A stretch of DNA of 43,233 bases from a virus: positions 1 through 43,233 of the IMG/VR virus record IMGVR_UViG_3300047322_000974, one strand, 5' to 3'. How positions within the stretch are numbered: the first letter of the stretch is position 1; each line of letters opens with the position of its first letter. The notes beneath the pieces were generated by a model. It worked only from the letters and a program-made list of their open reading frames with translations. It was not told where the DNA came from and searched no databases. The translations under genes and the position numbers were made by a program. Below are positions 1,701 through 43,047 of this stretch, piece after piece.

Positions 1701-2522
1701 TCACCGCCTCGAATTATGGACGAGTTGATCAACGAAGAATTCTATATGCCCTCTGGGGGAGGCCGGCAACGGCCAAGCGTCGACCTTTAAAGCGATTTCC
1801 TGAAATGCTAGGGCGCACTTGGAGCGCGGAAAGTATTCGTAGATTGCTCGCTGCTTCCGCACTGCCCTACGCACACTTTCATCATACGGAACCGCTCCCA
1901 CATACCGTAGATTGACGTTGAGGAAGCGATCGGTGACTTTGGCCAATTTAGCGAACAGCGCGCGACCTTCCTTTGGGCTCTGCTCCATATTGACCAGCAC
2001 CCGGAAACGGTCCATTCCGTAATCACGATTAAGCAGTTTGATCAGTGCGTAGGCATCAGTGATCGAGGTCGGTTCGTCGCAGATCACCAGCAAGACTTCG
2101 TAGGCCGCCCGGACGAGACTGATCACAGACGATCCGATGCCCGTAGCTGTGTCAATCACCAGCACATCGAGACTGTCACCTATTTCACTGAAGGCCTGGA
2201 TCAGGCCTGCGTGCTGAGCCGGAGACAAATGCTCCATGCTCTGAATGCCTGAAGCCGCGGGGACGATTCGTATCCCGCCCGGGCCGCTCAACAGTACATC
2301 GGAAAGCTCACAGCGACCTTCGATTAAATCGCCGAGCGTGTACTGCGGAGTAAGCCCCAACAGGACATCGATATTCGCCAGGCCAAGATCGCCATCAAGC
2401 AACACGACCCGCCGGCCTAATTTCGATAGCGCTAATGAAAGATTCACAGCCACAGTCGTTTTGCCGACGCCGCCCTTTCCGCCAGTCACGGCGATGACTT
2501 GCACAGAACGCACACTATCCAT
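1701..2522 (-). CDS. FleN-like MinD/ParA family ATPase (prophage-borne paralogue)
   Basis: A 273-residue P-loop ATPase. The deviant Walker A GGKGGVGKTT sits at residues 14-23. It is followed by the LLDGDLGLANIDVLLGL segment, the Walker B-like VIDTATGIG, the CDEPTSITDAYALIKLLNRD block and the C-terminal SPRGHIEFFVDQLV. From memory of Pseudomonas FleN (about 280 residues), the match runs nearly end to end. FleN limits polar flagellar number by antagonising the activator FleQ. The gene lies inside the att repeats with no partner flagellar genes, so it is cargo. An ATG at 2522 is preferred to an upstream in-frame start because homology begins there and AAGGGA lies 11 nt before it. It could act as a second dose of FleN or as a competitor for FleQ, which is inferred. 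Confidence 0.85.
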   Translation of the reverse strand: MDSVRSVQVIAVTGGKGGVGKTTVAVNLSLALSKLGRRVVLLDGDLGLANIDVLLGLTPQYTLGDLIEGRCELSDVLLSGPGGIRIVPAASGIQSMEHLSPAQHAGLIQAFSEIGDSLDVLVIDTATGIGSSVISLVRAAYEVLLVICDEPTSITDAYALIKLLNRDYGMDRFRVLVNMEQSPKEGRALFAKLAKVTDRFLNVNLRYVGAVPYDESVRRAVRKQRAIYEYFPRSKCALAFQEIALKVDAWPLPASPRGHIEFFVDQLVHNSRR

Positions 2523-2719
2523 GTTACTTATTCCCTTCCATGCACAACGTGTACGAGTAGTCGCCAACTCTTCCTAGATACTCAATGGTAACTGAAAAAT
2601 GCAGGCACATAGCCAGTGGCCGTATCACAGGATCACCAGAAACGCTGTAGCGCATTACATGCCAGTCACACGAACCGGAGCGGCCGCTGCTACGCTCACC
2701 TCTCCACGGAGGATTCGCG

Positions 2720-3104: not shown

Positions 3105-3152
3105 ATGCCTGACGAAAAAATAGTGCGCTTAGGAGCCTCCCCCCCCCAATGA
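3105..3152 (+). CDS. 15-codon upstream ORF containing a C9 tract
   Basis: ATG at 3105 encodes MPDEKIVRLGASPPQ and stops at TGA 3150-3152, overlapping the acyltransferase ATG (ATGA). The run of nine C at 3139-3147 falls in its last codons. The frame is out of phase with the acyltransferase by one base. One added C (or two lost) would fuse it in frame to that protein as a 15-residue N-terminal extension. There is no clear Shine-Dalgarno before 3105. It may work as a leader peptide for translational coupling. Confidence 0.4.
   Translation: MPDEKIVRLGASPPQ
3131..3147 (+). promoter_or_regulatory. Ribosome binding site separated from its start by a C9 tract
   Basis: AGGAG at 3131-3135 is the only good Shine-Dalgarno for the acyltransferase, but it lies 13 nt from the ATG at 3149, longer than the usual 5-9 nt. 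Nine consecutive C at 3139-3147 fill that gap. Loss of C residues would bring the spacing towards the optimum. Gain or loss also changes the frame of the overlapping 15-codon ORF. This is the classic layout for slipped-strand translational phase variation, not proven here. Confidence 0.5.
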
Positions 3153-5101
3153 CGTCCCTCTCAAAAGCCGATGCAGGTAGTTTGGCGGCATCACCCTTGA
3201 AAGATTACCGACCCGATATTGATGGGCTTCGCGCAATCGCCGTGATCTCTGTAATTCTTTATCACTTTAAAGTCGGTGTGTTTTCTGGCGGCTTTGTGGG
3301 GGTTGACATTTTCTTTGTTATTAGTGGATATCTAATTACAAAAGGAATTCTTGAGAAACAAAAAACAGGGAAATTTGAATTCCCTGACTTTTATTTTCGT
3401 CGAATCCGGCGATTAATTCCGGCACTACTGGCGACAGTAGCGGTATCCTACGCAGCCGCTTTCGCACTGTTCTCCCCGGCTGACTTTAAACAAATGTCAG
3501 GCTCGACCATATATGCACTGAGCGGGCTTTCAAACTTTTTCTTTTGGATGGAAAGTGGATATTTTGACACAGACTCGATTGTCAAACCTTTACTCCATAC
3601 TTGGTCACTAAGTGTAGAAATTCAGTTCTATATAATCTGGCCAATAATACTCATCTTCTCATCAAAAATAACTAGCAAACCTTTAATCCCGACGCTATGC
3701 CTAGCGATTATTGGTGGATATGCGGCCGTATCCTATTTGAATATTGACTCATCTGGCGCATTCTATTTAGCATCATTCAGAATACACGAGTTCCTATTTG
3801 GGGGAATAGCACTACTATGTGAACGTCTTAACACAAAAAAATACCTAAGCGATGCAGCCTATACTGTAGGACTTATCCTGACTGGGTATTCAATATTTTT
3901 ATTTAGCGTAAAAACCACTGCTTTCCCCGGATTCGCTGCAATGGTCCCATCAGCCGGGGCTGCCCTAATGATATTCGGCGGCGCAAAAGCAAAACTTGCG
4001 ATTCCTTTTTCATCGAAAATTGCTACAAAAATTGGCGAGATAAGCTACTCATTGTACCTTGTGCACTGGCCACTCATGGTATTTGTTAGTTATATTTTGA
4101 TTGATGACATCTCGACCCCAGAGACTATCGGCCTTATTGCATCAACTTACGCCCTTGCCTTAGTTTTATATTTAACAATCGAAAAACCATTCAGAAGCGC
4201 AGCAAAATCACGTCTAAATGGATCAGAGTTTAGCCTGGCTACTCTAGCGTGCTCCGTCGTAATCATCTTCATTTCAGCGAATAGCTGGGCAAAGGATGGT
4301 TGGGACTGGAGGATACCTGAAGAACTCCGCAACATAACAAAAGTCAATCAATCCGAACTTGACAAGTATGTTTGGGAACGTGAAATCGCACTCGACACGA
4401 AGGCGGGATTTGACCTCAGCAAAAACAAAGAAAAGATTCTGGTTATCGGTGACTCTCAAGCAGCAGACATCGTTAACATGCTAGCAGAAGGAGGTTACGC
4501 GACTGATACCGATATCGTTTCTCGTATAGTTGTTACAAACTGCAGCACATTTTATATAGACAACACAGAAACTGATAAATTTTTTACAAAAATTAACAGT
4601 TTGACGATACAAAGACCCGAACTAATAGCCCCCTGCAAAGAAATGATGTCAAGAGCTATCGACAGCACTCTATTAACTAACGCTGACAAGATATATATAG
4701 CATTTCGCTGGAATACTGAAACACTAAATTACAACTTGAAAGCCATCGAAAAATTACAATCGATGACAAAAGCAAAGGTATATGTATTTGGCCAAAAAGG
4801 GCTATCAAAAAGCAGCATTGATATCGCCACATCTGCCGGGCCAACGATGGAAATAAACCAGTTCGCCGCTCGCTTTAAGAGCAAAGAAACACAAAAGCTA
4901 AATTCAATACTGTCAGCTCAAAAAAACATCACATTCATAGATATGATGCAGATTACATGCCCAAGCGAAACAAGCTGTGTGGTGCTTACACCACAAAAAA
5001 AACCTATCTTCTTTGACCCGGGTCACCTAACCAAGGATGGCGCCCAGTACCTCGGAAGCTCCTTTTATTCGTTAATCACTTCAGCCAAACCAAACATCTA
5101 A
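3149..5101 (+). CDS. OafA/YrhL-type O-acyltransferase (acyltransferase 3 + SGNH)
   Basis: A 650-residue envelope polysaccharide acyltransferase. Residues about 18-370 form the acyltransferase-3 membrane domain, starting YRPDIDGLRAIAVISVILYH with the catalytic-type histidine and the FSGGFVGVDIFFVISGYLIT signature, then about ten helices. From about 420 to the end is a periplasmic SGNH domain with IGDSQAAD near 434 and the DPGHLTKDGA His motif near 625. This architecture O-acetylates O-antigen or other surface glycans. In phages it usually alters the receptor of the lysogen and blocks superinfection. The gene is clearly richer in A+T than its neighbours, a sign of separate acquisition. It runs convergent with the lysis genes. 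Its start is preceded by a C9 tract. Confidence 0.9.
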   Translation: MTSLSKADAGSLAASPLKDYRPDIDGLRAIAVISVILYHFKVGVFSGGFVGVDIFFVISGYLITKGILEKQKTGKFEFPDFYFRRIRRLIPALLATVAVSYAAAFALFSPADFKQMSGSTIYALSGLSNFFFWMESGYFDTDSIVKPLLHTWSLSVEIQFYIIWPIILIFSSKITSKPLIPTLCLAIIGGYAAVSYLNIDSSGAFYLASFRIHEFLFGGIALLCERLNTKKYLSDAAYTVGLILTGYSIFLFSVKTTAFPGFAAMVPSAGAALMIFGGAKAKLAIPFSSKIATKIGEISYSLYLVHWPLMVFVSYILIDDISTPETIGLIASTYALALVLYLTIEKPFRSAAKSRLNGSEFSLATLACSVVIIFISANSWAKDGWDWRIPEELRNITKVNQSELDKYVWEREIALDTKAGFDLSKNKEKILVIGDSQAADIVNMLAEGGYATDTDIVSRIVVTNCSTFYIDNTETDKFFTKINSLTIQRPELIAPCKEMMSRAIDSTLLTNADKIYIAFRWNTETLNYNLKAIEKLQSMTKAKVYVFGQKGLSKSSIDIATSAGPTMEINQFAARFKSKETQKLNSILSAQKNITFIDMMQITCPSETSCVVLTPQKKPIFFDPGHLTKDGAQYLGSSFYSLITSAKPNI

Positions 5102-5138: not shown

Positions 5139-5669
5139 TTACATTCGTCCCGGTGCAATGCCATAAATTTCGTCATACGCCCGCTCGCAGGTCATTCCCC
5201 GGGCTCGGGCTTGGTCAGCAATTGCAGCCAGGTCGCCCGCTCGCTGGTCAGCGCGCTTGAACACGTCGGCAAGCACTGCGGCGGCGCGGGTAGCTGCCTT
5301 GCTTGCGGCGGCAGTGCAGGAATGGCCGCTGGCTTCATTGGCTGCGAGTCGGTTGGAAAGGTTGTCGGCTGCTCCGCGCAGGCTGTCAGCAGAATTGCGA
5401 GCGGCAGCAGCATCAGCCGTCGCTTGATCGATGATGCGTTGACCATCTTGAACCGCCTTGTTGATTGATTGTTGGTAGGCCTGCTCTTTGGTGCGCTCGG
5501 CGGCTTCGTTGTCTGCGTTCGCTTGAGCATCCCGGGTGTCGCGGGCGTTCCACTCTGATTGCCATCTTTCATTCGTGACGGCCACACCGTGGTGATAGGC
5601 ACCGAAAAGCATGGCGGCGAGAAGCAGGGCCGCTGCTAGATAAGGAAGGACTCGCAACAGAACTTTCAT
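5139..5669 (-). CDS. Rz-like inner-membrane spanin (DUF2514)
   Basis: A 176-residue i-spanin. An N-terminal membrane anchor (residues about 5-27, VLPYLAAALLLAAMLFGAYH) is followed by a long alanine-rich, charged coiled coil to about 150. It pairs across the periplasm with the Rz1 lipoprotein encoded inside it to disrupt the outer membrane in the last step of lysis. Its ATG overlaps the endolysin stop (ATGA at 5666-5669), so the two are translationally coupled. It is the last gene of the late operon. Confidence 0.85.
   Translation of the reverse strand: MKVLLRVLPYLAAALLLAAMLFGAYHHGVAVTNERWQSEWNARDTRDAQANADNEAAERTKEQAYQQSINKAVQDGQRIIDQATADAAAARNSADSLRGAADNLSNRLAANEASGHSCTAAASKAATRAAAVLADVFKRADQRAGDLAAIADQARARGMTCERAYDEIYGIAPGRM
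5192..5446 (-). CDS. Rz1-like outer-membrane spanin lipoprotein nested in Rz
   Basis: An 84-residue frame wholly inside Rz in another frame. It starts at ATG 5446 after AAGG at a suitable distance. It has a basic N-terminus, a hydrophobic stretch MLLPLAILLTAC with lipobox LTAC, then a proline-rich body (ALPPQARQLPAPPQ), all typical of Rz1. The predicted lipidated cysteine lies at about residue 22. The nested arrangement matches lambda Rz/Rz1, although here Rz1 also ends inside Rz. An in-frame ATG at 5413 is an alternative start that would leave a shorter signal sequence. Confidence 0.8.
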   Translation of the reverse strand: MVNASSIKRRLMLLPLAILLTACAEQPTTFPTDSQPMKPAAIPALPPQARQLPAPPQCLPTCSSALTSERATWLQLLTKPEPGE

Positions 5670-6199
5670 GCCAGCACCTCACCGGCCTTCTTCCAAAGAG
5701 CCAGCCGTTCTTCCTGACCATTGAGCCCGCCGTTGATGCGCCGGGTGATGCGCTCGAAGTCGCCGACATCGGCCAAGGTGTTCAGCCCTTTGATGGCCCA
5801 ATACCAGGCGGCGGACATGCAGGCGAACTGGGGCTGCTCCAGCAGCTCGGGCTGGTTCACCAGATCCACGCCCAGTGCTTCCCCGCACGCGGCATAGTTG
5901 GCCCGCCCTGTGATCTGGATCAGGCCACGGCCACGGTACTTGAAGCCGTCACCCGCCACGGTGTTGCCCAGGTCTTTTCTGCCTTCATAGTCGCGCTGAG
6001 CAGGTGTCGGCCCCCAAATCTCACGCACGTACACCAATTGCCCGGACTCATGGCCGATTTGGGCGACGAAGGCGGCGACACGTTTGGAACCGATAATCTG
6101 GTACCGCTGCAGCGCCGTATTAAGGACAGGCGCAAAAACGCCGGCTTTGGCGCCGGCGTCCGGGAGGATCAGCAGCAACTGCTGCGCGGTGATAGGCAT
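5666..6199 (-). CDS. Endolysin, glycoside hydrolase family 19 (chitinase-like)
   Basis: A 177-residue peptidoglycan hydrolase of GH19 type. The motif AQIGHESG gives the likely catalytic glutamate E51, and the second acid falls at about E60 (YVREIWGP). FKYRGRGLIQITGRANY (about residues 86-102) is the family hallmark. No signal peptide is visible, so it needs the holin for export, and the holin is encoded 20 kb away at the start of the late operon. ATG 6199 is chosen because GGAGAAAAGC precedes it. An ATG four codons upstream lacks a site. It is coupled to Rz by stop/start overlap. Confidence 0.9.
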   Translation of the reverse strand: MPITAQQLLLILPDAGAKAGVFAPVLNTALQRYQIIGSKRVAAFVAQIGHESGQLVYVREIWGPTPAQRDYEGRKDLGNTVAGDGFKYRGRGLIQITGRANYAACGEALGVDLVNQPELLEQPQFACMSAAWYWAIKGLNTLADVGDFERITRRINGGLNGQEERLALWKKAGEVLA

Positions 6200-6212
6200 G
6201 CTTTTCTCCATA

Positions 6213-30056: not shown

Positions 30057-30825
30057 GATGATCACCTCCCACGACGCGCGGAGAAGGCGTCAGACCAAAA
30101 CGGCGCAGAAGCTGCTCGCGGGCGGACTGACCATCAGTTGGAATGCCCATTCGCGATACCTGTGCCTCCGCAACTCGCTCGGTCAGCTCGGACGCCCACT
30201 CGACTTGGGACTTGCTACCGTCATGGCCGATACCAACGGCGATCTCTTCCAACGGAAGTCCCTTCACCAGCCTGCGAATCGTGATGTCGTAAGCCCGATC
30301 GAAAACCTTGCTGGCTTTCTCAGGAATCTGGTCGCAGAGGTTGTGGATCTCACATTGGAGCGCTGCGTGCCGTACGGCCGGATGAGACCAGGTGCGCTCG
30401 CCAAATCGGCTCGGGTGCGAATTATCCAGAGCTTCGCGGAAGGCCCTGTCGTGCGAAGGGATACCCAGCATTTCAGGGGTGGGCTGGCACCACTTGATGA
30501 ACTTCCCGACGCTGGGCGCGAAGTCGCCGCCGAGGTTTCGGCAATTCTGGATGCCGTACCGGATCTGCTCGATCTGGTTGATACCCTCGGCGATGAACGC
30601 TTTGATCCAGCTACGCTTCGCCGCATCCAAAGTTTCGTCGTCTGGCCACGCCTGACGCCAAGCCGGAAAGATGGCCTTGAGCTCCTTGAACAGAGCGTTG
30701 ACGACTTCGGCGGTCCCCGGGGCGAGCTGAGTCGGCACCGACGGAATAACCGGCGGCAGATTGCCCATGGTTTGTAGGAGCATGGTGGCGCTTTTAACGG
30801 TCGGCTTTTTCGCAGGTGCGTTCAT
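30049..30825 (-). CDS. Replication protein P (helicase loader-like)
   Basis: A 258-residue protein of the phage P type: VVNALFKELKAIFPAWRQAWPDDETLDAAKRSWIKAF (about 40-77), then GIQNCRNLGGDFAPSVGKFIKWCQP (about 88-112), the hallmark of P-like replication proteins that recruit the host DnaB helicase to the O-bound origin. GGAGG lies 6 nt before ATG 30825, which overlaps the O stop. The C-terminus is basic. Confidence 0.87.
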   Translation of the reverse strand: MNAPAKKPTVKSATMLLQTMGNLPPVIPSVPTQLAPGTAEVVNALFKELKAIFPAWRQAWPDDETLDAAKRSWIKAFIAEGINQIEQIRYGIQNCRNLGGDFAPSVGKFIKWCQPTPEMLGIPSHDRAFREALDNSHPSRFGERTWSHPAVRHAALQCEIHNLCDQIPEKASKVFDRAYDITIRRLVKGLPLEEIAVGIGHDGSKSQVEWASELTERVAEAQVSRMGIPTDGQSAREQLLRRFGLTPSPRVVGGDHHA

Positions 30826-31613
30826 CACAAACCTCCAAGGTCGTCAGCCCAGCTGGTGCTATCGAAATCAGGCGCCTTGCCCTGCCCCGACGCCTTGACA
30901 CGCTCGCGCTTCACCCACTGCACCAACCGGAAGCACCAGCCAGCAGCCGAGTCGACGGTGGTGGACTTGGCCACGAAGAAACCCTTGAACGCACGGACGG
31001 CTGCGTCAGGCACTGCGTCAGCAGGCAGACCAGCAATCGCGATCTGGTCGGACAGGGATTTGGCATTCGGCTCCCAGGCAGCGAACATGGCGAAGCGTTG
31101 GCGATCATCCGGCGCATCGACGGCGGCCTGGTCCTGTCGAGAAATCTCATCGGCCAACTCGCGCTGCAGCTGCTCTTCGGTTACCTGATGGTTAAGTGAT
31201 GGATTGGGTGCAGCCGCTGCACCCCGTTCTGTCTCAGGCTGCACCCCGCTCTGTTGTGAGTTGCAGCCCGTTGCATCATCTGCACCCCGTTTTGTACGGG
31301 GTGCAGGATTTGCACCCCGCGATAGTTGGAGGTCGTACACGACTGGGCGGCGGTCATGACGATCGATGTGCACGGCGGCAATAGCTTGGTTGCCCTTCTG
31401 GATCAGTCCGCCCTTCTCCAGATCGTCCAGTTTGTAGCGCACGGTGCGCTCTGAGAGTCCGGTGTCCTGAGCCAGTGTCGAGGCAGATGGAAAGGCGCCA
31501 GCACCATTCGAACCGGCATAGTTGGCCAAGCACAACAGCACGTGACGCGCGCTCGAGTCTTTCAGGGTTTCAGTGGGCAGAGAGAGCGCCCAGGACATTG
31601 CTTGAACACTCAC
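30825..31613 (-). CDS. Replication protein O (initiator, winged helix + DnaT-like)
   Basis: A 262-residue initiator. Residues about 20-75 are a winged helix (SARHVLLCLANYAGSNGAGAFPSASTLAQDTGLSERTVRYKLDDLEKGGLI). The middle (about 100-150) is encoded by the iteron-like repeats and is low-complexity. The C-terminal MFAAWEPNAKSLSDQIAIAGLP matches the DnaT-type DNA-binding module. GTG 31613 is preferred with CGGAG 7 nt upstream. ATG 31598 is the alternative. As in lambda, the probable origin lies inside the gene and P follows. Confidence 0.83.
   Translation of the reverse strand: MSVQAMSWALSLPTETLKDSSARHVLLCLANYAGSNGAGAFPSASTLAQDTGLSERTVRYKLDDLEKGGLIQKGNQAIAAVHIDRHDRRPVVYDLQLSRGANPAPRTKRGADDATGCNSQQSGVQPETERGAAAAPNPSLNHQVTEEQLQRELADEISRQDQAAVDAPDDRQRFAMFAAWEPNAKSLSDQIAIAGLPADAVPDAAVRAFKGFFVAKSTTVDSAAGWCFRLVQWVKRERVKASGQGKAPDFDSTSWADDLGGL
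31206..31325. repeat. Iteron cluster inside gene O, candidate replication origin
   Basis: Copies of TGCACCCCGYTYTGT occur at 31218-31232, 31240-31254 and 31281-31295. A degenerate copy lies at 31262-31276 and a partial copy TGCACCCCG at 31311. ACGGGGTGCA at 31296-31305 is an inverted copy forming a perfect 10-bp inverted repeat with the one before it. GGGTGCAG at 31206 is another inverted part. Spacings are near 22 bp. Repeats inside an initiator gene are the lambda ori pattern. Confidence 0.65.
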
Positions 31614-31666
31614 AGCGAGGCTCCGATGTTGAATTCGGCAATCCCGCGTGACGACATGGTGTGACA

Positions 31667-31703
31667 CGACACTTTCTGTGATTGCCCCAAAAGTGTCGCG
31701 ACA
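31667..31703. repeat. Inverted repeat upstream of gene O
   Basis: CGACACTTT at 31667-31675 is matched by AAAGTGTCG at 31690-31698 with a 14-nt loop. It is followed by the palindrome TGTCGCGACA at 31694-31703. GTGTGACAC lies just left. It sits between the CII-like gene and O where early transcripts pass, so it may be a protein-binding site or an mRNA structure. Its partner is unknown. Confidence 0.45.
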
Positions 31704-31767
31704 TGTTGGATGTTGCCGGGGGTGAAGTGGTTGTGCATAATCAGCTCCAATACGTTTTACAGCTGTT

Positions 31768-31800
31768 GAAAAAGCCGACATCGACCGTCGGCTTTTTTGT
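31768..31800. terminator. Bidirectional terminator between the CII-like gene and O
   Basis: AAAAAGCCGACATCGACCGT and then CGGCTTTTTT form an AAGCCGAC/GTCGGCTT stem with A-run on one side and T-run on the other, so it can work in both directions. On the minus strand it would attenuate early transcription after the CII-like gene, like lambda tR1. Confidence 0.8.
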
Positions 31801-31809
31801 GCGCGCTAT

Positions 31810-32232
31810 TCAGGCAACCTTCACCGACGCCTCCATCACATCCAGGCTTCGCCGGACATGTCCAAGCTCCTTGCGAATGGCCGCTTTCTCGATTGGGGAA
31901 ACATGGTTATCGTCCAAGGCTTCGTGCACCGCGATGGTCAAATCCGCGACCTCTTTACCAACGTTGATCAGTGATGCCGTGAGCGCTCTCGGCTCAGCTG
32001 CGACTTTGGAAACCAACTCGTAACCGAACTGACCAGCCAGCGTCATCAACGGGCGCATATCGCCTGTGTGCAACAAGATCCCGAACAGGTGCTCGATGGT
32101 CAGGTGATGGGCATCGTTGTCGGGATTGGCGCGTTGCAGCAGGCTCACATGAGGAACGCCCATCTGGCCGGCCAGTACCTTCGCTTCGTTGTCGAGGACC
32201 GCGCTTTGGCAAGCCCGCAGAAATTCGTCCAT
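31810..32232 (-). CDS. CII-like phage regulatory protein (CP76 family)
   Basis: A 140-residue protein with MDEFLRACQSAVLDNEAKVLAGQMGVPHVSLLQRANPDNDAHHLTIEHL, then FGILLHTGDMRPLMTLAGQFGYELV, matching the Phage_CP76/CII regulatory family. Members control the lysis-lysogeny choice. It lies directly after cro in the rightward-equivalent early operon, with a terminator behind it. GAGGT lies 8 nt upstream of the ATG. Confidence 0.8.
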   Translation of the reverse strand: MDEFLRACQSAVLDNEAKVLAGQMGVPHVSLLQRANPDNDAHHLTIEHLFGILLHTGDMRPLMTLAGQFGYELVSKVAAEPRALTASLINVGKEVADLTIAVHEALDDNHVSPIEKAAIRKELGHVRRSLDVMEASVKVA

Positions 32233-32298: not shown

Positions 32299-32538
32299 TT
32301 AGGCGACAGTTTTTTTGGGATGCGCTTCTGCAAGCAACCAATCGACTTCGAACGGTTTGGCATTCGCGGACGCCAACTCAGCGATCTTTTTTGCGTACTG
32401 GGTTTCCCCGGTGTACTCGGTGCGCGGCAGTGCATCCGCCACAAGCCACTTGTAAATAGCTCTCGGAGTTTTCCCGCATGCCAAGGCCACGGCAGGGACG
32501 CCGCCAGCAGCATCAATCGATTTCTTGAGCGGCCGCAT
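32299..32538 (-). CDS. cro: Cro-like repressor
   Basis: A 79-residue HTH protein: MRPLKKSIDAAGGVPAVALA followed by CGKTPRAIYKWLVADALPRTEY, a YdaS/Cro-like helix-turn-helix. ATG 32538 is chosen because GGAGGGCC lies just before it, and longer frames run into the operator. It is transcribed divergently from cI from a promoter covered by the operators at 32560-32596. Confidence 0.8.
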   Translation of the reverse strand: MRPLKKSIDAAGGVPAVALACGKTPRAIYKWLVADALPRTEYTGETQYAKKIAELASANAKPFEVDWLLAEAHPKKTVA

Positions 32539-32559
32539 GAGGCCCTCCGTGTCAAATAT

Positions 32560-32629
32560 GAACTTACGGTACATATTATGTCGGAACTGAAAGTACACGC
32601 AAGGACATGCGATGCTGAACCAATGGTTC
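32560..32629. promoter_or_regulatory. Immunity operators (three GWAC-N5-GTWC sites) and divergent cro/cI promoters
   Basis: Three 13-bp pseudo-palindromes occur at 32560-32572 (GAACTTACGGTAC), 32584-32596 (GAACTGAAAGTAC) and 32617-32629 (GAACCAATGGTTC). The middle one fills the spacer of a minus-strand promoter, TTGCGT (32602-32597), 16 bp, CATAAT (32580-32575), for cro. A plus-strand -10 TATTAT at 32574-32579 suits cI, with a poor -35. The third site overlaps the cI start codon and could give autorepression. Confidence 0.72.
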
Positions 32630-33486
32630 ACATAGAAGATATTCGTGCGGCGTTTGTCGCCCGCCTCAAGAAGTCCCTTTCCGCCCACGGCATTGACCAA
32701 TGGGGGGCTGGCGCGCGTTTAGCGGAAATCGCTAAGGTCACCCCCAAAGCTTCGAGCAAATGGCTCAATGGTGAGTCCTTACCAGGCCCAGCCAAGATGA
32801 GCGCAATCGCGGAAGCCCTTGGTGTAAAAATCGAGTGGCTTCAGCATGGCGCAGGGGATGAACCCGAGTTATCAAAGCTGGCGAAGGGAGAAAGAAATGA
32901 TACTGATGATCACAGCCAATCGGCAGCGGAAATCGTCAGGAACATGCTTGCGAAGCAGGGGAAAGGACTGTCAGAAGATGCGCGCAGGAGATTACTTGCA
33001 GTCGCAGAAGCCGACGAAGGCGGCGCCATTGGGCTTGACTACTACCGCCCCGGCGCGATGGGTGACGAAGTCTGGATCGCGCATTACGACGTCCGCGCAG
33101 CTATGGGTGGAGGTCAGATACCCCACGATTATCCAGAAATGCTTCAGGACGTTCGTGTAAGCCCCCAGCATCTACGCGAGATGGGCGTTGAGTTCAAAGA
33201 GCACTTTCATCTCAAGATGGTTACCGGTTGGGGTCAATCGATGGCGCCAACTATCAAGCACCGCGATCCACTACTCGTCGATATCAGCATCCGTGAGTTC
33301 GTGGGTGATGGGATCTACATGTTCTCTTGGGAAGGTCACCTCTACATCAAGCGGCTCCAATGGGTTGGCGACGATCAGATCAATATGATTTCTGATAATA
33401 CCAGGCACCCTCCGCAAACGATCAGAGCTGACGAGACCTACATCCAGGCAAGGGTGCTGCTGGTGTGGAATGCGCAATTGGTGTAA
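32623..33486 (+). CDS. cI: CI-like repressor (HTH + S24 peptidase)
   Basis: A 287-residue lysogeny repressor. The N-terminal HTH (GARLAEIAKVTPKASSKWLN, about 30-49) binds operators. The C-terminal LexA-type S24 domain has the serine in WGQSMAPT (S206) and the lysine in LYIKRLQW (K243), 37 residues apart as in LexA. The AAMGGGQ hinge (159-165) is the probable self-cleavage region. RecA-stimulated autocleavage would make the prophage SOS-inducible. ATG 32623 is used. An in-frame ATG at 32578 overlaps the predicted -10 and is unlikely to be translated. No good Shine-Dalgarno is seen, as with other weakly or leaderlessly translated cI genes. Confidence 0.9.
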   Translation: MVHIEDIRAAFVARLKKSLSAHGIDQWGAGARLAEIAKVTPKASSKWLNGESLPGPAKMSAIAEALGVKIEWLQHGAGDEPELSKLAKGERNDTDDHSQSAAEIVRNMLAKQGKGLSEDARRRLLAVAEADEGGAIGLDYYRPGAMGDEVWIAHYDVRAAMGGGQIPHDYPEMLQDVRVSPQHLREMGVEFKEHFHLKMVTGWGQSMAPTIKHRDPLLVDISIREFVGDGIYMFSWEGHLYIKRLQWVGDDQINMISDNTRHPPQTIRADETYIQARVLLVWNAQLV

Positions 33487-34080: not shown

Positions 34081-34539
34081 CTACAAGCCAAGTATCTGCC
34101 TTTTCTTGGCCTGGAATTCTTCTTCGGTAAGGATGCCATTGGATCGAAGTGTGGCTAGACGCTCCAAATCATCTAGATATGACCCCTGCGCAACAGGGGC
34201 TGAAGTTCGGCCAATGAGTGGCTGAAGCTTACCGCGCAGCACTTCAAATGCTGGCTGTTGATCCCTTGTAAAAAGCACCGTGTTCTCATCTGATGCAGCT
34301 TGGAAAGCCCCTCCTTTAGCCTCACTTCCGCCCTGGAACGAAAACTGGATGTATCCGTTGGTGAACATTCCGGCCGACTTGAATTGGAGCGCAGTTAGGA
34401 GTGAGATCGGTATCTCTTTATCGCCCTTCAGTCCCTGCGTCATGAAAGCAAGCACCCCCTTCCGTTTTATGGTGACCGAAGTGTCGCTTAATTCGATGCT
34501 GCCGCCATGGCCTTTGAAAAACTCTACGTTGTCACTCAT
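34081..34539 (-). CDS. DUF4429/SHOCT domain protein
   Basis: A 152-residue protein. Residues 10-100 form a PH-like DUF4429 domain (GGSIELSDTSVTIKRKGVLAFM, then GDKEIPISLLTALQFKSAG and GYIQFSF). The C-terminal 30 residues are a SHOCT motif (LDDLERLATLRSNGILTEEEFQAKKRQILGL). Such domain pairs are found in many bacteria, often near mobile elements. They are presumed to be regulatory or membrane-proximal, but no activity is established. It stands alone between the cI unit and the lipoprotein gene. Confidence 0.82.
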   Translation of the reverse strand: MSDNVEFFKGHGGSIELSDTSVTIKRKGVLAFMTQGLKGDKEIPISLLTALQFKSAGMFTNGYIQFSFQGGSEAKGGAFQAASDENTVLFTRDQQPAFEVLRGKLQPLIGRTSAPVAQGSYLDDLERLATLRSNGILTEEEFQAKKRQILGL

Positions 34540-34677: not shown

Positions 34678-35505
34678 CTATTCCTTTCCGCCGTACCGAT
34701 GCCAGGCTAAGACGATCTCCTTCATCGCATTTTTTTGCGTTTCTGGCAGGACGAAGTCGTGGTAGTACTGACGCCCGTCATAGCGAATTACCACCTTCTT
34801 GGCAGCAATGATCTTATTCAGCATGACCATGTCTTCGACTGGTGAATCTGACCACTCCCAAATACTGCCCGAGCCGTTGTCACGCTCAAAGTCCAACTTA
34901 TCCAAATTGAAGACCTGATCATCTGCCTTTATAGTCACGCTTTGCACGAATAGCCAGCTGTCGGCGTAGTAGTTAAATTTCATCCGCAGCGGGTATACGG
35001 AAGCTGATCCGTTCTTTGTACCGAAATACAAAGACATGTAGTTATCCAGCACTGGCTGTGATTTGTGCGAAATCCATGTGACGCCTTTTATCTCATCCGT
35101 GTTCTTCCTCAGGTTCGTATCAAGGCGAGCGAGGGTTTGCCGTTGCTCCTCTAAGGCTCTAGCAGCTTCAAGCTGTTTTGCTTTCTCGACAGCTTCAATC
35201 TTTGCGTTTACATCGCTCACCACAGACTTGGCGCCTTCAGCCTGTTGAGTCTCTGGGTAACGGGCGATTAGATCATTAAGCGTCTGTTTTGCTAGAACGA
35301 GGTTCGCCTGAGAAATTTCGTTCTTTGCTCTCGCCAGCAATCGATCCGGGCCGTTTCTTTCAGCATCCAGCTCTGCGCGTAAGGCACTGACTTCCCCCTG
35401 AAGCTTATTAACCTCTTGTTGAAGCTTCGCTGCGTTTTCCTTGTCAGCCTGGCCGCAGGCCGTAAGTGAAATTGCGAGCCCTAATGCTAAGAAAATTTTA
35501 TTCAT
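34678..35505 (-). CDS. Coiled-coil lipoprotein (phage cargo)
   Basis: A 275-residue predicted lipoprotein. The signal MNKIFLALGLAISLTAC has lipobox LTAC, cysteine 17. A coiled coil (about 25-60) and an Ala/Glu-rich helical segment (about 85-140) lead to a globular beta-rich domain (WISHKSQPVLDNYMSLYFGT, then RMKFNYYADSWLFVQSVTIK). It should sit on the outer membrane facing the periplasm, or on the inner membrane. Superinfection exclusion is a reasonable guess for a lysogen-expressed phage lipoprotein, but nothing proves it. Confidence 0.75.
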   Translation of the reverse strand: MNKIFLALGLAISLTACGQADKENAAKLQQEVNKLQGEVSALRAELDAERNGPDRLLARAKNEISQANLVLAKQTLNDLIARYPETQQAEGAKSVVSDVNAKIEAVEKAKQLEAARALEEQRQTLARLDTNLRKNTDEIKGVTWISHKSQPVLDNYMSLYFGTKNGSASVYPLRMKFNYYADSWLFVQSVTIKADDQVFNLDKLDFERDNGSGSIWEWSDSPVEDMVMLNKIIAAKKVVIRYDGRQYYHDFVLPETQKNAMKEIVLAWHRYGGKE

Positions 35506-35587: not shown

Positions 35588-35905
35588 CTAGAAAGGCGCC
35601 GCCTCCTCCACCGCTTCCATACTGTCGACCTCCATCACGTGGTCCTCTGCCGCACTTGCTTCCCACCTCAGCGTCACTGACTCATCGTCGTTGAGTGTCA
35701 TGTCGATGCCATCTGTTTCAGATAGCAAGCCCATCACTTCCTCCCATTCTCGGTCGCCATCCGTATCAAGACGGTGAATCGTCACCCAGCGCTGAATCTG
35801 TGCAACGGGATGGTTGATCATTTCAGAGACGCGGAGCCCAAGTCGCTCCATTCCGCTTCTTTCTTGGCGCTGTGCCGGTTTTGACTGCTTGTTCGTCTTG
35901 GACAT
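35588..35905 (-). CDS. Acidic early protein, function unknown
   Basis: A 105-residue protein from ATG 35905 with GGAGGGTGAG upstream. The N-terminus is basic (MSKTNKQSKPAQRQERSGME) and the C-terminal half is acidic (SETDGIDMTLNDDESVTLRW and beyond, ending EAVEEAAPF). It is transcribed away from the rightward promoter, from a promoter that must lie in 35910-36030. A position beside OL suggests a regulatory or anti-host protein. No family is recognised. Confidence 0.6.
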   Translation of the reverse strand: MSKTNKQSKPAQRQERSGMERLGLRVSEMINHPVAQIQRWVTIHRLDTDGDREWEEVMGLLSETDGIDMTLNDDESVTLRWEASAAEDHVMEVDSMEAVEEAAPF

Positions 35906-36030
35906 CTCACCCTCCATTTGCTGTACATGCATCCAGTATAAACAAACTATATCGAAGCGTTTCAAAGGGGTAAATCCCAAATGTGCCCGGCGGGTGATTT
36001 CCACCAGGTGTGAACTTCTAAAATATTTAT

Positions 36031-36072
36031 GTACTTTTGGTACTTGACCATTTGTGAACCCATAGTTCATAT
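36031..36072 (+). promoter_or_regulatory. Second operator/promoter region (OL/PL-like)
   Basis: Two operators of the same type as at cI/cro lie at 36031-36043 (GTACTTTTGGTAC) and 36056-36068 (GAACCCATAGTTC), 25 bp apart against 24 bp for the first two sites at cI. TTGACC (36044-36049), a 17-bp spacer and TCATAT (36067-36072) form a rightward promoter, with the -35 between the operators and the -10 touching the second. It would drive the right arm and be shut off by CI. Confidence 0.7.
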
Positions 36073-36416
36073 TTGACTCGTCGCAGCAACATACACACTG
36101 CGAATGACCTCAACCGGTCAATGCTCTTTAACAGTCAGCGCAACAAACAACAGACCGCATTGCCTCTACCGGCGACCGGCGAGCAGACAGGCCCGAAAGC
36201 CTGCCAACGACAGGAACAACCTGGACAGCTGCTCGATGGTGAAACGCCTTAACCGTGTGAATGACCCGGCAAGCAATGCGCCCCGCCCCTCCGGCGGTAA
36301 TAGGACGGAAAGCATCACTTCTGCCCATTCACTGAGTGGGCAGCGGGATGCAGGCCTGCATTGAACGAAAGGCTCAACAGAGCAAGGCGACATCAAATGA
36401 ATTAGGGAATCGACCC
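36073..36416 (+). other. Rightward leader region
   Basis: About 340 bp of leader without a supported gene. It contains a boxA (36122-36133) and a small hairpin CAGGC-CCGAAA-GCCTG at 36188-36203. A second inverted repeat CTGCCCA...TGGGCAG lies near 36326-36348, followed by a TGCAGGCCTGCA palindrome. Open frames on both strands here are short and lack ribosome binding sites. Confidence 0.55.
36122..36133 (+). promoter_or_regulatory. boxA antitermination element
   Basis: TGCTCTTTAACA is the boxA consensus of bacterial rRNA operons and close to lambda nut boxA. It lies about 45 nt into the transcript predicted from the PL-like promoter. The hairpin at 36188-36203 could play the part of boxB but is farther away than in lambda. 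NusB/S10 loading and antitermination through the terminator at 37281 are inferred. Confidence 0.55.
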
Positions 36417-37091
36417 ATGACTGTAGACATCAGCAACTACACCATCGCCACCCCGCTTCCAATTTCCGAGACCAACCCGATCGCGCTGGAACTGATCGGT
36501 TGGCGTGCGCTACTCGAGTGTCCGGAAGTTATCTCGATGCTTCCGGATGGCTCCATGCAGATGACGGCGCCGACGCTCGGAGCTTCGAGTAAGAGCACAA
36601 AGCGAACTCGTTGCGAATGGAAGGAGCCAGGTTACTGGTTGTTCTCCAGCGCCGCAGACCACTGGAGCCGACAAGAGATGCGAGTAACGAAGGTCAACTC
36701 GCTGCAGAAGGTGGTGATCGCTCAAATTCATGTGAAGGACTCAGAACGACCACCTGTGAAGGTGTTCTGGAACAAGGGAAAAATCATCATGGGGTTTCGA
36801 TCGAGCTACCTGCAAGACGATCCCGTGAACTCGATGGTGCTGGAAAACGTACCGCTCGGTGCGCTTTTCAAAATCAACATTCACGCCAACTCCAACGGAG
36901 CCGTGTCCGTATCAGCGAGCTGTAACGGCGTCAAATCTACGTCCGAAATCATGCGCCTCGACAACACCTGGGACACGAAGACTCTCGCCTTCCACGGCGG
37001 CGTGTACAACCAGATCGATTACTCCGACACCACGGATCCTGAGGACGGTTCGATTTGCGTGATCAGTGATCTATCCATCACTCACGGGTAA
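36417..37091 (+). CDS. Alginate lyase, polysaccharide lyase family 7
   Basis: A 224-residue single-domain PL7 enzyme with its active-site motifs in order: RCEWKE (65-70, the RxE(L)RE motif), QIH (103-105) and YNQ (197-199, GVYNQIDYS). R65, Q103, H105 and Y197 correspond to the known catalytic set. QIH rather than QVH is usually linked to preference for guluronate-containing alginate. No signal peptide is present, so the enzyme would be cytoplasmic until lysis. It is the first gene of the rightward operon and has its own terminator at 37281, a moron layout. ATG 36417 is chosen from family alignment. The Shine-Dalgarno (AGGGA) is weak. Confidence 0.85.
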   Translation: MTVDISNYTIATPLPISETNPIALELIGWRALLECPEVISMLPDGSMQMTAPTLGASSKSTKRTRCEWKEPGYWLFSSAADHWSRQEMRVTKVNSLQKVVIAQIHVKDSERPPVKVFWNKGKIIMGFRSSYLQDDPVNSMVLENVPLGALFKINIHANSNGAVSVSASCNGVKSTSEIMRLDNTWDTKTLAFHGGVYNQIDYSDTTDPEDGSICVISDLSITHG

Positions 37092-37414
37092 GACCAACCA
37101 GCGCCACGTCGACCTGACGATACCTGCCGGATGCGGATGATTCTGCACTGCGCAATGCGGCCCCCTGCATCCAGTAGGACGGGAAACAAATTGCACCTTA
37201 CCGGAATAGTTTTTCCAGCCCACTCCAACCGAGGATGACCGCCATGAAATAGACCAAAGCCAAAAATCGCTGCATCTGTGAAAGGCCCGAACGTCCAACG
37301 GGCCTTTCTTTTGCCCCCGCCTTTATCCGTCAGCACTCTCCCCTGCGCCCAACGGCAACCAGCAGTAGGCACGAGTGCTGACGAATACACGCAACCCACA
37401 TCGAGGGATCAGCC
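37092..37414. other. Intergenic region after the alginate lyase
   Basis: About 320 bp with no supported gene apart from the terminator at 37281-37312. A frame starting near 37131 (MRMILHCAMRPPASS) lacks a ribosome binding site and is not called. The part after the terminator probably carries the leader of the next small genes. Confidence 0.55.
37281..37312 (+). terminator. Terminator after the alginate lyase
   Basis: AAAGGCCCG and CGGGCCTTT pair across a 9-nt loop and are followed by CTTTTG. It separates the lyase from the small early genes, so either the lyase is a self-contained unit or polymerase must be antiterminated to reach the rest. Confidence 0.85.
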
Positions 37415-41722: not shown

Positions 41723-41935
41723 ATGAAAAAAGAACTGATCAAGATCAGCGAGTTTCAGCGCCGGCGCTGGGGCGAAGGCGGTACCCCGCAATGCCCACAG
41801 GCAATCCGCAACCACATCCGGAACGGAATGGTACCCGGCGAGCAGATCGGCAAACTCTGGTACGTTGATTGGGCCGCTTTCAGCCGCTCGAACGGCAACG
41901 ACCTGGTCGCAATGGTATTGAAAGGAGCTGCATGA
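41723..41935 (+). CDS. xis: Excisionase-like protein (Xis)
   Basis: A 70-residue protein with MKKELIKISEFQRRRWGEGG, then TPQCPQAIRNHIRNGMVPGE and QIGKLWYVDWAAF. This is a winged-helix MerR/excisionase-like fold in the position of lambda xis. It bends attL/attR DNA and tips integrase towards excision. GGAG precedes ATG 41723. Its stop overlaps the integrase start (ATGA), so it is co-translated with int. Confidence 0.8.
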   Translation: MKKELIKISEFQRRRWGEGGTPQCPQAIRNHIRNGMVPGEQIGKLWYVDWAAFSRSNGNDLVAMVLKGAA

Positions 41936-43047
41936 TGGTGCCACGGCCGCGCAACCCTGCGAACAAGGGACTTCCGCAGAACTTGTACTACGACGCGCGG
42001 CGCTCGACCTATCGCTACCGGCGGCCTACCGACGGGAAGTGGTTTCCGTTCGGCGCCGACCGCCTCAAGGCAATTGATGCCGCGAAGCAGCTGAATCTTG
42101 AGTTCATGCGCGGTGCCGACCTGGTCGGTGCCGTAATGAACAACGCCTCAGAAACGTTCGCCGGATTCCTCGACACCTACGAGCGCGACGTCCTGCCACC
42201 CCGCGAGCTGGCCCCGGGAACCCAGGGCTTGTATGCGGTGCATTTCCGTCGCTTTCGCAAACAGTTCGAAGGCAAGGCCGTAGACCAGATCACGATCCGC
42301 ATGATCGCGGAGATGCTGGACGCCCTCACCCCGCGTACGGCCAACCAATGCCGGGCGCTGCTGGTCGACATTTTCAACCATGCCGCGGCCAAAGGGCTGT
42401 GCCCGGACAACCCGGCCGCCAGCACAATCAATCGCATCGAGAAGAAGCAGCGCAAGCGCCACACAGTAGAGGGCCTGAAAGCCATCAGGGAGAAAGCACC
42501 ATCCTGGCTGCAGAACGCAATCGACCTGGCCCTGATCACCGCCCAGCGCCGAACCGACATCCTAGATATGCGTTTTGACGGCGTTCGGGAGGGATTCCTC
42601 TACCTGGTGCAGAAGAAGACGGCTAAGGCCAGTGATGCCGCGTGGATTCGCTTTCGAGTGACGCCCGAGTTGCAGGCGGTCATCAGCCGCTGCCGTGACG
42701 ATGTCGTATCGCCTTACCTGGTGCACCGAAAGCCTGAGCGCCGGCAACAGAAGCAGGCTCAGACCAAGGACCACTGGACGAAGGTTGAGGAACGGTATTT
42801 GACGCGTGCATTCAAGGAAGCCAGGGAGGCGGCGAACTGCTACGCGGGATGGAAGGAAGAAGAGATGCCGGGCTTCCACGAAGTGCGAGCGCTGTCACTG
42901 CACCTGTACAAGAAAGCCGGAAAGGACGGGCAGAAAATTGCAGGTCATGCGAGCGAGGGCATGACCAAAAACTACCAGCGCGATCACGAGGAAGTCATCT
43001 GGTCCGAGGCAATTCCGGACCTGAATATCAGCGAAATCACCGGGTAG
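41932..43047 (+). CDS. int: Integrase, lambda-type tyrosine recombinase
   Basis: A 371-residue integrase. The N-terminal 60 residues (GLPQNLYYDARRSTYRYRRP, then TDGKWFPFGADRLKAI) match the lambda arm-binding domain, and residues about 75-175 the core-binding SAM-like domain. The active site is R206 (TAQRRTDI), K229 (VQKKTAKA), H316 and R319 (HEVR), H339 (AGHASEG) and Y348 (KNYQR). It performs integration at the tRNA-Pro-like att site 85 bp downstream. Candidate arm sites begin one base after the stop. AAGGAG precedes ATG 41932, which overlaps the xis stop. Confidence 0.93.
   Translation: MMVPRPRNPANKGLPQNLYYDARRSTYRYRRPTDGKWFPFGADRLKAIDAAKQLNLEFMRGADLVGAVMNNASETFAGFLDTYERDVLPPRELAPGTQGLYAVHFRRFRKQFEGKAVDQITIRMIAEMLDALTPRTANQCRALLVDIFNHAAAKGLCPDNPAASTINRIEKKQRKRHTVEGLKAIREKAPSWLQNAIDLALITAQRRTDILDMRFDGVREGFLYLVQKKTAKASDAAWIRFRVTPELQAVISRCRDDVVSPYLVHRKPERRQQKQAQTKDHWTKVEERYLTRAFKEAREAANCYAGWKEEEMPGFHEVRALSLHLYKKAGKDGQKIAGHASEGMTKNYQRDHEEVIWSEAIPDLNISEITG

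Follow-up and report, generated by a model that had tools for sequence, protein, structure and literature searches.

A polysaccharide lyase gene in the early arm of a lambda-like phage

The window, that is, the whole stretch of 43,233 nucleotides analyzed here (IMG/VR record IMGVR_UViG_3300047322_000974), is that of a lambda-like Pseudomonas phage. A CI repressor with HTH and Peptidase S24 domains (Pfam, PHROGs) is encoded on the plus strand at 32578-33486, with a possible true start at 32623. Divergent from cI lies the gene for a Cro-like small DNA-binding protein of 79 amino acids (32299-32538, minus strand; assigned by sequence reading and position), and the minus strand also codes for a CII-like activator (31810-32232; PHROG 101, E = 2e-25) and an O-like replication protein (30825-31781). 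Rightward of cI, the order is a DUF1654 gene on the minus strand (35588-35905; Pfam PF07867, E = 1.1e-23), a divergent control region and, as the first plus-strand gene, a gene for a PL7-family polysaccharide lyase of 224 amino acids (36417-37091); a gene for a lambda-type integrase (41869-43047, plus strand; Pfam) occupies the far end of this arm. Between cI and the DUF1654 gene, a predicted lipoprotein and a DUF4429/SHOCT protein are encoded on the minus strand (34678-35505 and 34081-34539; Pfam).

The DUF1654 gene, itself divergent from the lyase gene, is preceded by a LexA-like box, CTGGATGCATGTACAG (35921-35936, minus strand), and a box of this form (CTG-N10-CAG) was found upstream of DUF1654 in 35 of 35 loci, as against 24 of 1520 random stretches. 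As an idea only, the product of this region (35588-35936, minus strand) could serve, like Tum or AntC, as an induction factor under SOS control.

The lysis genes, for an endolysin (5666-6211) and an Rz-like spanin (5139-5669; both PHROGs), are found on the minus strand. Because these genes (5139-6211) lie on the opposite strand, an association of the lyase gene with late or tail genes was rejected for this phage. The first-pass annotation had set the enzyme apart from tail-borne depolymerases, and rightly so, as the product is a single domain encoded in the early arm, neither fused nor adjacent to tail or virion genes. Adjoining the spanin and endolysin genes is an accessory gene of the O-antigen acetylase type (3149-5101, plus strand; PHROG 6705, E = 6e-142), a second surface-polysaccharide gene of this phage. 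Near the left end of the window, a ParA/FleN-like ATPase gene was recognized by reading (1701-2567, minus strand); this region is perhaps the host flank of an integrated prophage.

The enzyme and its likely substrate

The product of 36417-37091 matches the Alginate_lyase2 profile (PF08787) over its full length (E = 1.3e-42; 146.6 bits against a cut-off of 29.7; residues 3-223), as well as PHROG 31475, a family of unknown function. Its match in the PDB is the alginate lyase PA1167 of P. aeruginosa (1VAV; E = 2.4e-7), and a Foldseek search with an AlphaFold model of high confidence (pLDDT 93.7) returned PA1167 first (TM 0.82), followed by other PL7 lyases, including A1-II'. The model thus has the beta-sandwich (jelly-roll) fold of PL7 enzymes, in agreement with the family assignment made at first reading. 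Lectin-like domains among the lower Foldseek matches were set aside, the jelly-roll fold being merely common to them and to PL7 enzymes.

The catalytic residues R65/E67, Q103, H105 and Y197 are retained in the alignment, and R65, E67, Q103, H105, Y197 and Q199 are invariant in 27 diverse members, down to 55% identity. It had also been stated that all PL7 motifs are intact. This is slightly too strong since, relative to the published consensus, RXE(L/V)R, Q(I/V)H and YFKXGXYXQ (PMC9345997), QIH is exact and R65/E67, Y197 and Q199 are kept, whereas the motifs RCEWKE and FHGGVYNQ deviate. The change to RCEWK and AFHGGVYNQ-type sequences is found throughout the subfamily and, with two of the three signature motifs non-canonical, alginate is the likely but not the certain substrate. 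An enzyme controlled and released in the way proposed below could cut a different polyuronate, such as a glucuronan-like or another acidic polymer, and the second sequence match in the PDB is indeed a fungal PL7 glucuronan lyase; we nevertheless regard this as unlikely, as PA1167, a Pseudomonas alginate lyase, is its nearest relative in fold as well as in sequence, and the members found come from Pseudomonas or its phages wherever a host is named. Alginate is made by many pseudomonads. The identity of the substrate is the main biochemical uncertainty for this enzyme.

For phage copies the ratio dN/dS is about 0.05, and for chromosomal copies (see below) it is 0.05-0.07, which indicates that the gene is under strong purifying selection. 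No hydrophobic N-terminal stretch was found, so that the protein appears to be made without a signal peptide, as had been noted; this is, however, not peculiar to the phage, because the resident canonical PL7 paralogues of Pseudomonas likewise show none in the alignment.

A CI operator lies within the promoter upstream of the lyase gene

Upstream of the lyase gene, a match to the sigma70 consensus (-35 TTGACC, an 18-nt spacer and -10 CATATT; 36044-36073, plus strand) marks the putative PL promoter. Its spacer contains a perfect palindrome, TGAACCCATAGTTCA (36055-36069), the predicted CI operator OL1, and a possible second operator, OL2, TGTACTTTTGGTACT, lies at 36030-36044, upstream of the -35 element; relatives show the same arrangement, with one operator before the -35 and another between the -35 and the -10. 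Perfect copies of TGAAC-N5-GTTCA occur exactly twice in the window, at PL (36055-36069) and beside cI (32616-32630), where two degenerate copies (32559-32573 and 32583-32597) complete the predicted OR operators (32559-32630, plus strand). The matching operators at cI and within the promoter-like site bear out the proposal that the lyase gene belongs to the early regulatory arm and is the first gene of a CI-controlled, PL-type rightward operon, as far as can be judged from the DNA. A consensus scan, covering consensus-type sites between 36074 and the lyase gene, found no second promoter, and an independent lysogenic promoter was accordingly set aside.

Operators were then compared at 56 PL7 loci from IMG/VR and GTDB, each with its own type of cI. 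A perfect palindrome with 5-bp arms was common to the cI-upstream and PL7-upstream regions at 31 of these loci; at the other 25 no perfect palindrome was shared, perhaps because the real operators are imperfect. Averaged over 21 repressor groups, sharing was about 0.47 for own pairs and about 0.04 for mismatched pairs, and none of 20,000 permutations was as good as the observed total. The type of operator thus tracks the local repressor; the types include TGAAC-N5, AACCG-N1, TTAGC-N5, TAGCA-N2, CAATA-N7 and TTACC-N4.

Leader RNA, untranslated region and terminator

Between the promoter and the lyase gene lie two segments predicted to be structured in the RNA. The first (36105-36310, plus strand) is a leader that carries an rrn-type boxA, GCTCTTTAACA (36123-36133), behind a small hairpin. 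The boxA is nearly invariant and the leader shows compensatory pairs, while the preceding hairpin varies in sequence; the leader is also kept in phages without PL7, and a boxA-core scan found it in at least 120 IMG/VR stretches. An ORF-like cluster (cluster 19) that overlaps it was rejected as a gene, being the conserved leader read as protein. The boxA suggests Nus-dependent antitermination, and the leader is a candidate for an antitermination RNA of the PL operons in Pseudomonas phages. If the boxA does antiterminate, the lyase gene, located before the first terminator (37280), would be immediate-early, and the genes behind it would need antitermination.

The second segment (36311-36416, plus strand) is a 5' untranslated region specific to PL7, which travels with the gene into chromosomes. 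It contains a conserved hairpin (36312-36351) with compensatory changes, and folds much better than shuffled sequences (z -3.6). In other phages, PL7 or a different cargo gene follows a second type of hairpin, with the loop TTGGCGACA. Rfam holds no family for the leader or for this untranslated region.

Downstream of the gene, an intrinsic terminator is predicted at 37280-37312 (plus strand), consisting of a hairpin (37280-37308; -17.9 kcal/mol, z -3.3) followed by TTTT. The lyase gene had been credited with a terminator of its own, which holds for this phage but not in general: a similar hairpin terminator follows PL7 in just 13 of 92 relatives, against a background of 37 in 930 random stretches, and we rejected a conserved terminator as a defining trait of PL7 loci.

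The lyase occupies a recurrent cargo slot

The pairing of repressor and lyase recurs in dozens of other phages. A search of phage genomes for PL7 next to OL/PL was clearly positive, with two PL7 clades in the position CI-DUF1654-PL7. In the tree, a second group (L127-L132) falls among resident chromosomal genes, apart from the clade of the window's PL7. Five prophage members of this second clade (L127, L128, L129, L131 and L132) have the order CI (plus), DUF1654 (minus), PL7 (plus). In all but L127, a TTGAC promoter with a TTAGC-N5-GCTAA operator precedes the PL7 start by less than 100 nt, and the same operator is present beside cI; in L127 this operator is 381 nt upstream of PL7. The same gene order in a separate clade implies that PL7 has filled this slot in two distinct clades.

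Other genes can take its place. In SC_8_H2H8_2017 and MT835699, different genes fill the interval from DUF1654 to the sequence otherwise downstream of PL7. Among the 80 boxA-core matches listed, 57 have enough downstream DNA, and PL7 is present in four of these 57; other first genes behind the leader, among the matches listed, include small ORFs and a gene for a LuxR-like HTH protein. A TerB-like protein, named by eye, is encoded first behind the same leader at six loci (L141, for example) among these matches. Since unrelated genes sit behind the same boxA leader in other phages, the position appears from these comparisons to be a recurrent cargo slot, and the view that it is an unusual place for such an enzyme is not supported in that form. 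No relatives of the lyase were found in a search of plasmids.

Repressor-lyase pairs in Pseudomonas chromosomes

At least 13 Pseudomonas chromosomes keep only an S24 repressor, its operators and PL7, without other phage genes. Bacterial genes surround this block of S24 repressor gene, terminator, operator/promoter, PL7 untranslated region and PL7 in species that include P. mandelii, P. frederiksbergensis, P. lini and P. migulae. The repressors have two types of HTH, A and B, which pair with two types of operator (ATGGG..CCCAT and TAGCAG..CTGCTA); common to both types are the S24 half, the untranslated region and PL7, with S24 and HTH assigned by Pfam. At class A loci, no perfect palindrome is common to the repressor-upstream and lyase-upstream regions. 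Of 400 Pseudomonas genomes drawn, 74 carry a member of the wider PL7 clade. Among the best 20 loci (L090-L109, at least 82% identity), the repressor is solitary in 13, and an integrase-like remnant, named by an HxxR-type reading and not by profile, lies downstream in 10. The pairs look like relics of prophages that kept the repressor and the lyase. We rejected a prophage setting for every chromosomal relative, as 15 loci among 20 in the 50-62% group have surroundings without detectable CI or DUF1654.

Discussion

The explanation that best accounts for these observations is that the PL7 gene would encode an accessory (moron-type) lyase, placed first in the PL early operon and directly under an autocleaving CI. 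We think it probable that the product is a cytoplasmic lyase inducible by DNA damage, which is synthesized as soon as induction begins and escapes on lysis to open a polyuronate matrix; the timing of expression, the lyase activity and the release are all parts that we infer. In the lysogen, CI would keep the gene off. DNA damage, through RecA-driven self-cleavage of the S24 repressor, or a fresh infection, would open PL, and the lyase, encoded ahead of the first terminator, would be made at once. Leaderless, it would accumulate in the cytoplasm, which offers it no known polymeric substrate, until lysis by endolysin and spanin, the presumed release route, set it free. Outside, it would beta-eliminate polyuronates, most likely alginate, and the matrix around the burst cell would be thinned, allowing virions or, for the chromosomal copies, surviving kin to spread. 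The freeing of cytosolic content by explosive lysis is described for P. aeruginosa biofilms (PMC4834629). Release on lysis was one of two roles suggested by the first-pass annotation, and we rate it the most plausible route. What speaks against this explanation is that the enzyme would be synthesized early though useful only at lysis; a site in the late operon by the holin, as in phage AH02, would seem more economical for a lysis-stage enzyme.

The other suggested role, action within the lysogen, fits poorly. Lysogenic conversion, in which PL7 would be expressed independently of the lytic program and alter the host matrix or allow the use of alginate, could draw on the gene's own untranslated region and terminator in this phage, on the persistence under selection of chromosomal copies without a phage, and on the frequent expression of accessory genes in lysogens (PMC7067206). 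We give it only a small chance, because the sole promoter-like site found upstream has a CI operator within it and should be silent in the lysogen, an arrangement kept in the chromosomal copies; furthermore, PL7 has no export signal. That the gene is a neutral hitch-hiker, derived from a resident gene and caught in the early-operon slot, with the chromosomal pairs as functionless, decaying relics, is very improbable: many different genes do occupy the slot, integrase-like remnants do lie beside class A chromosomal copies, and one such copy (L070) has lost 14 residues and the upstream region, but dN/dS is near 0.05 for PL7 and is also low for the relic repressors (0.08-0.13), two PL7 clades share the slot, and the operators keep up with swaps of the repressor.

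The recurrence of repressor and lyase in phages and chromosomes suggests that DNA damage can switch on a slime-degrading enzyme, released by lysing cells. As a tentative extension of damage-induced release, somewhat doubtful as it stands, the S24 repressor, operators, structured 5' untranslated region and PL7 might form a damage-triggered, matrix-dissolving module common to Pseudomonas phages and chromosomes and domesticated in the latter, through which a dying, SOS-induced cell would release a matrix-degrading enzyme as a public good for dispersal. The solitary chromosomal copies have no adjacent lysis genes, and release there must depend on other elements. Phage depolymerases are usually viewed as parts of the virion that serve entry; the evidence here points to a soluble lyase under the lytic-growth switch which, made on induction, would let the progeny out. 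The chromosomal pairs suggest that, in bacteria, switch and output have outlasted the phage, which would link DNA damage, including that caused by antibiotics, to breakdown of the biofilm matrix in the Pseudomonas fluorescens group.

Each of the three elements, phage lyase, accessory gene and solitary autocleaving repressor, is already known separately. In an incomplete coverage of the literature, we found no paper describing a repressor of the CI type whose conserved, direct output is a polysaccharide lyase, with the pair present both in phages and on its own in chromosomes. With PA1167, the phage enzyme shares the fold (TM 0.82), QIH, the catalytic R/Q/H/Y and a similar length, and the canonical relatives of PA1167 likewise have no obvious signal peptide; PA1167 is, however, the product of a host gene, the identity is only about 22% over the structural alignment, and two signature motifs differ. 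Virion-borne depolymerases such as tail spikes are also polysaccharide-degrading and phage-encoded, whereas this PL7, a free enzyme of 224 amino acids, lacks a tail domain and has its gene in the early arm. Free-standing PL7 enzymes are found in other Pseudomonas phages, namely Psa21 (60% identity), the vB_PpuM group (about 40%) and AH02 (28%). Psa21 and the vB_PpuM group are, however, jumbo phages; in Psa21 the gene lies inside a tRNA cluster, in the PpuM phages the distant relative adjoins a minor tail gene, unlike in the window phage, and in AH02 the gene is near the holin in a late-type region. Like the morons of lambdoid phages, the PL7 gene is a swappable unit between conserved phage sequences, as SC_8_H2H8_2017 and MT835699 illustrate, and in this phage has a terminator; unlike them, its promoter is predicted to be the CI-controlled PL, and the consensus scan revealed no lysogen promoter of its own. 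AlpR/PrtR-type autocleaving repressors control lysis and pyocin genes in Pseudomonas. PMC12796719 deals with the Alp and Prt regulons. Like these, the chromosomal pairs place an S24 repressor over a damage-response output; here, however, the output is a single polysaccharide lyase.
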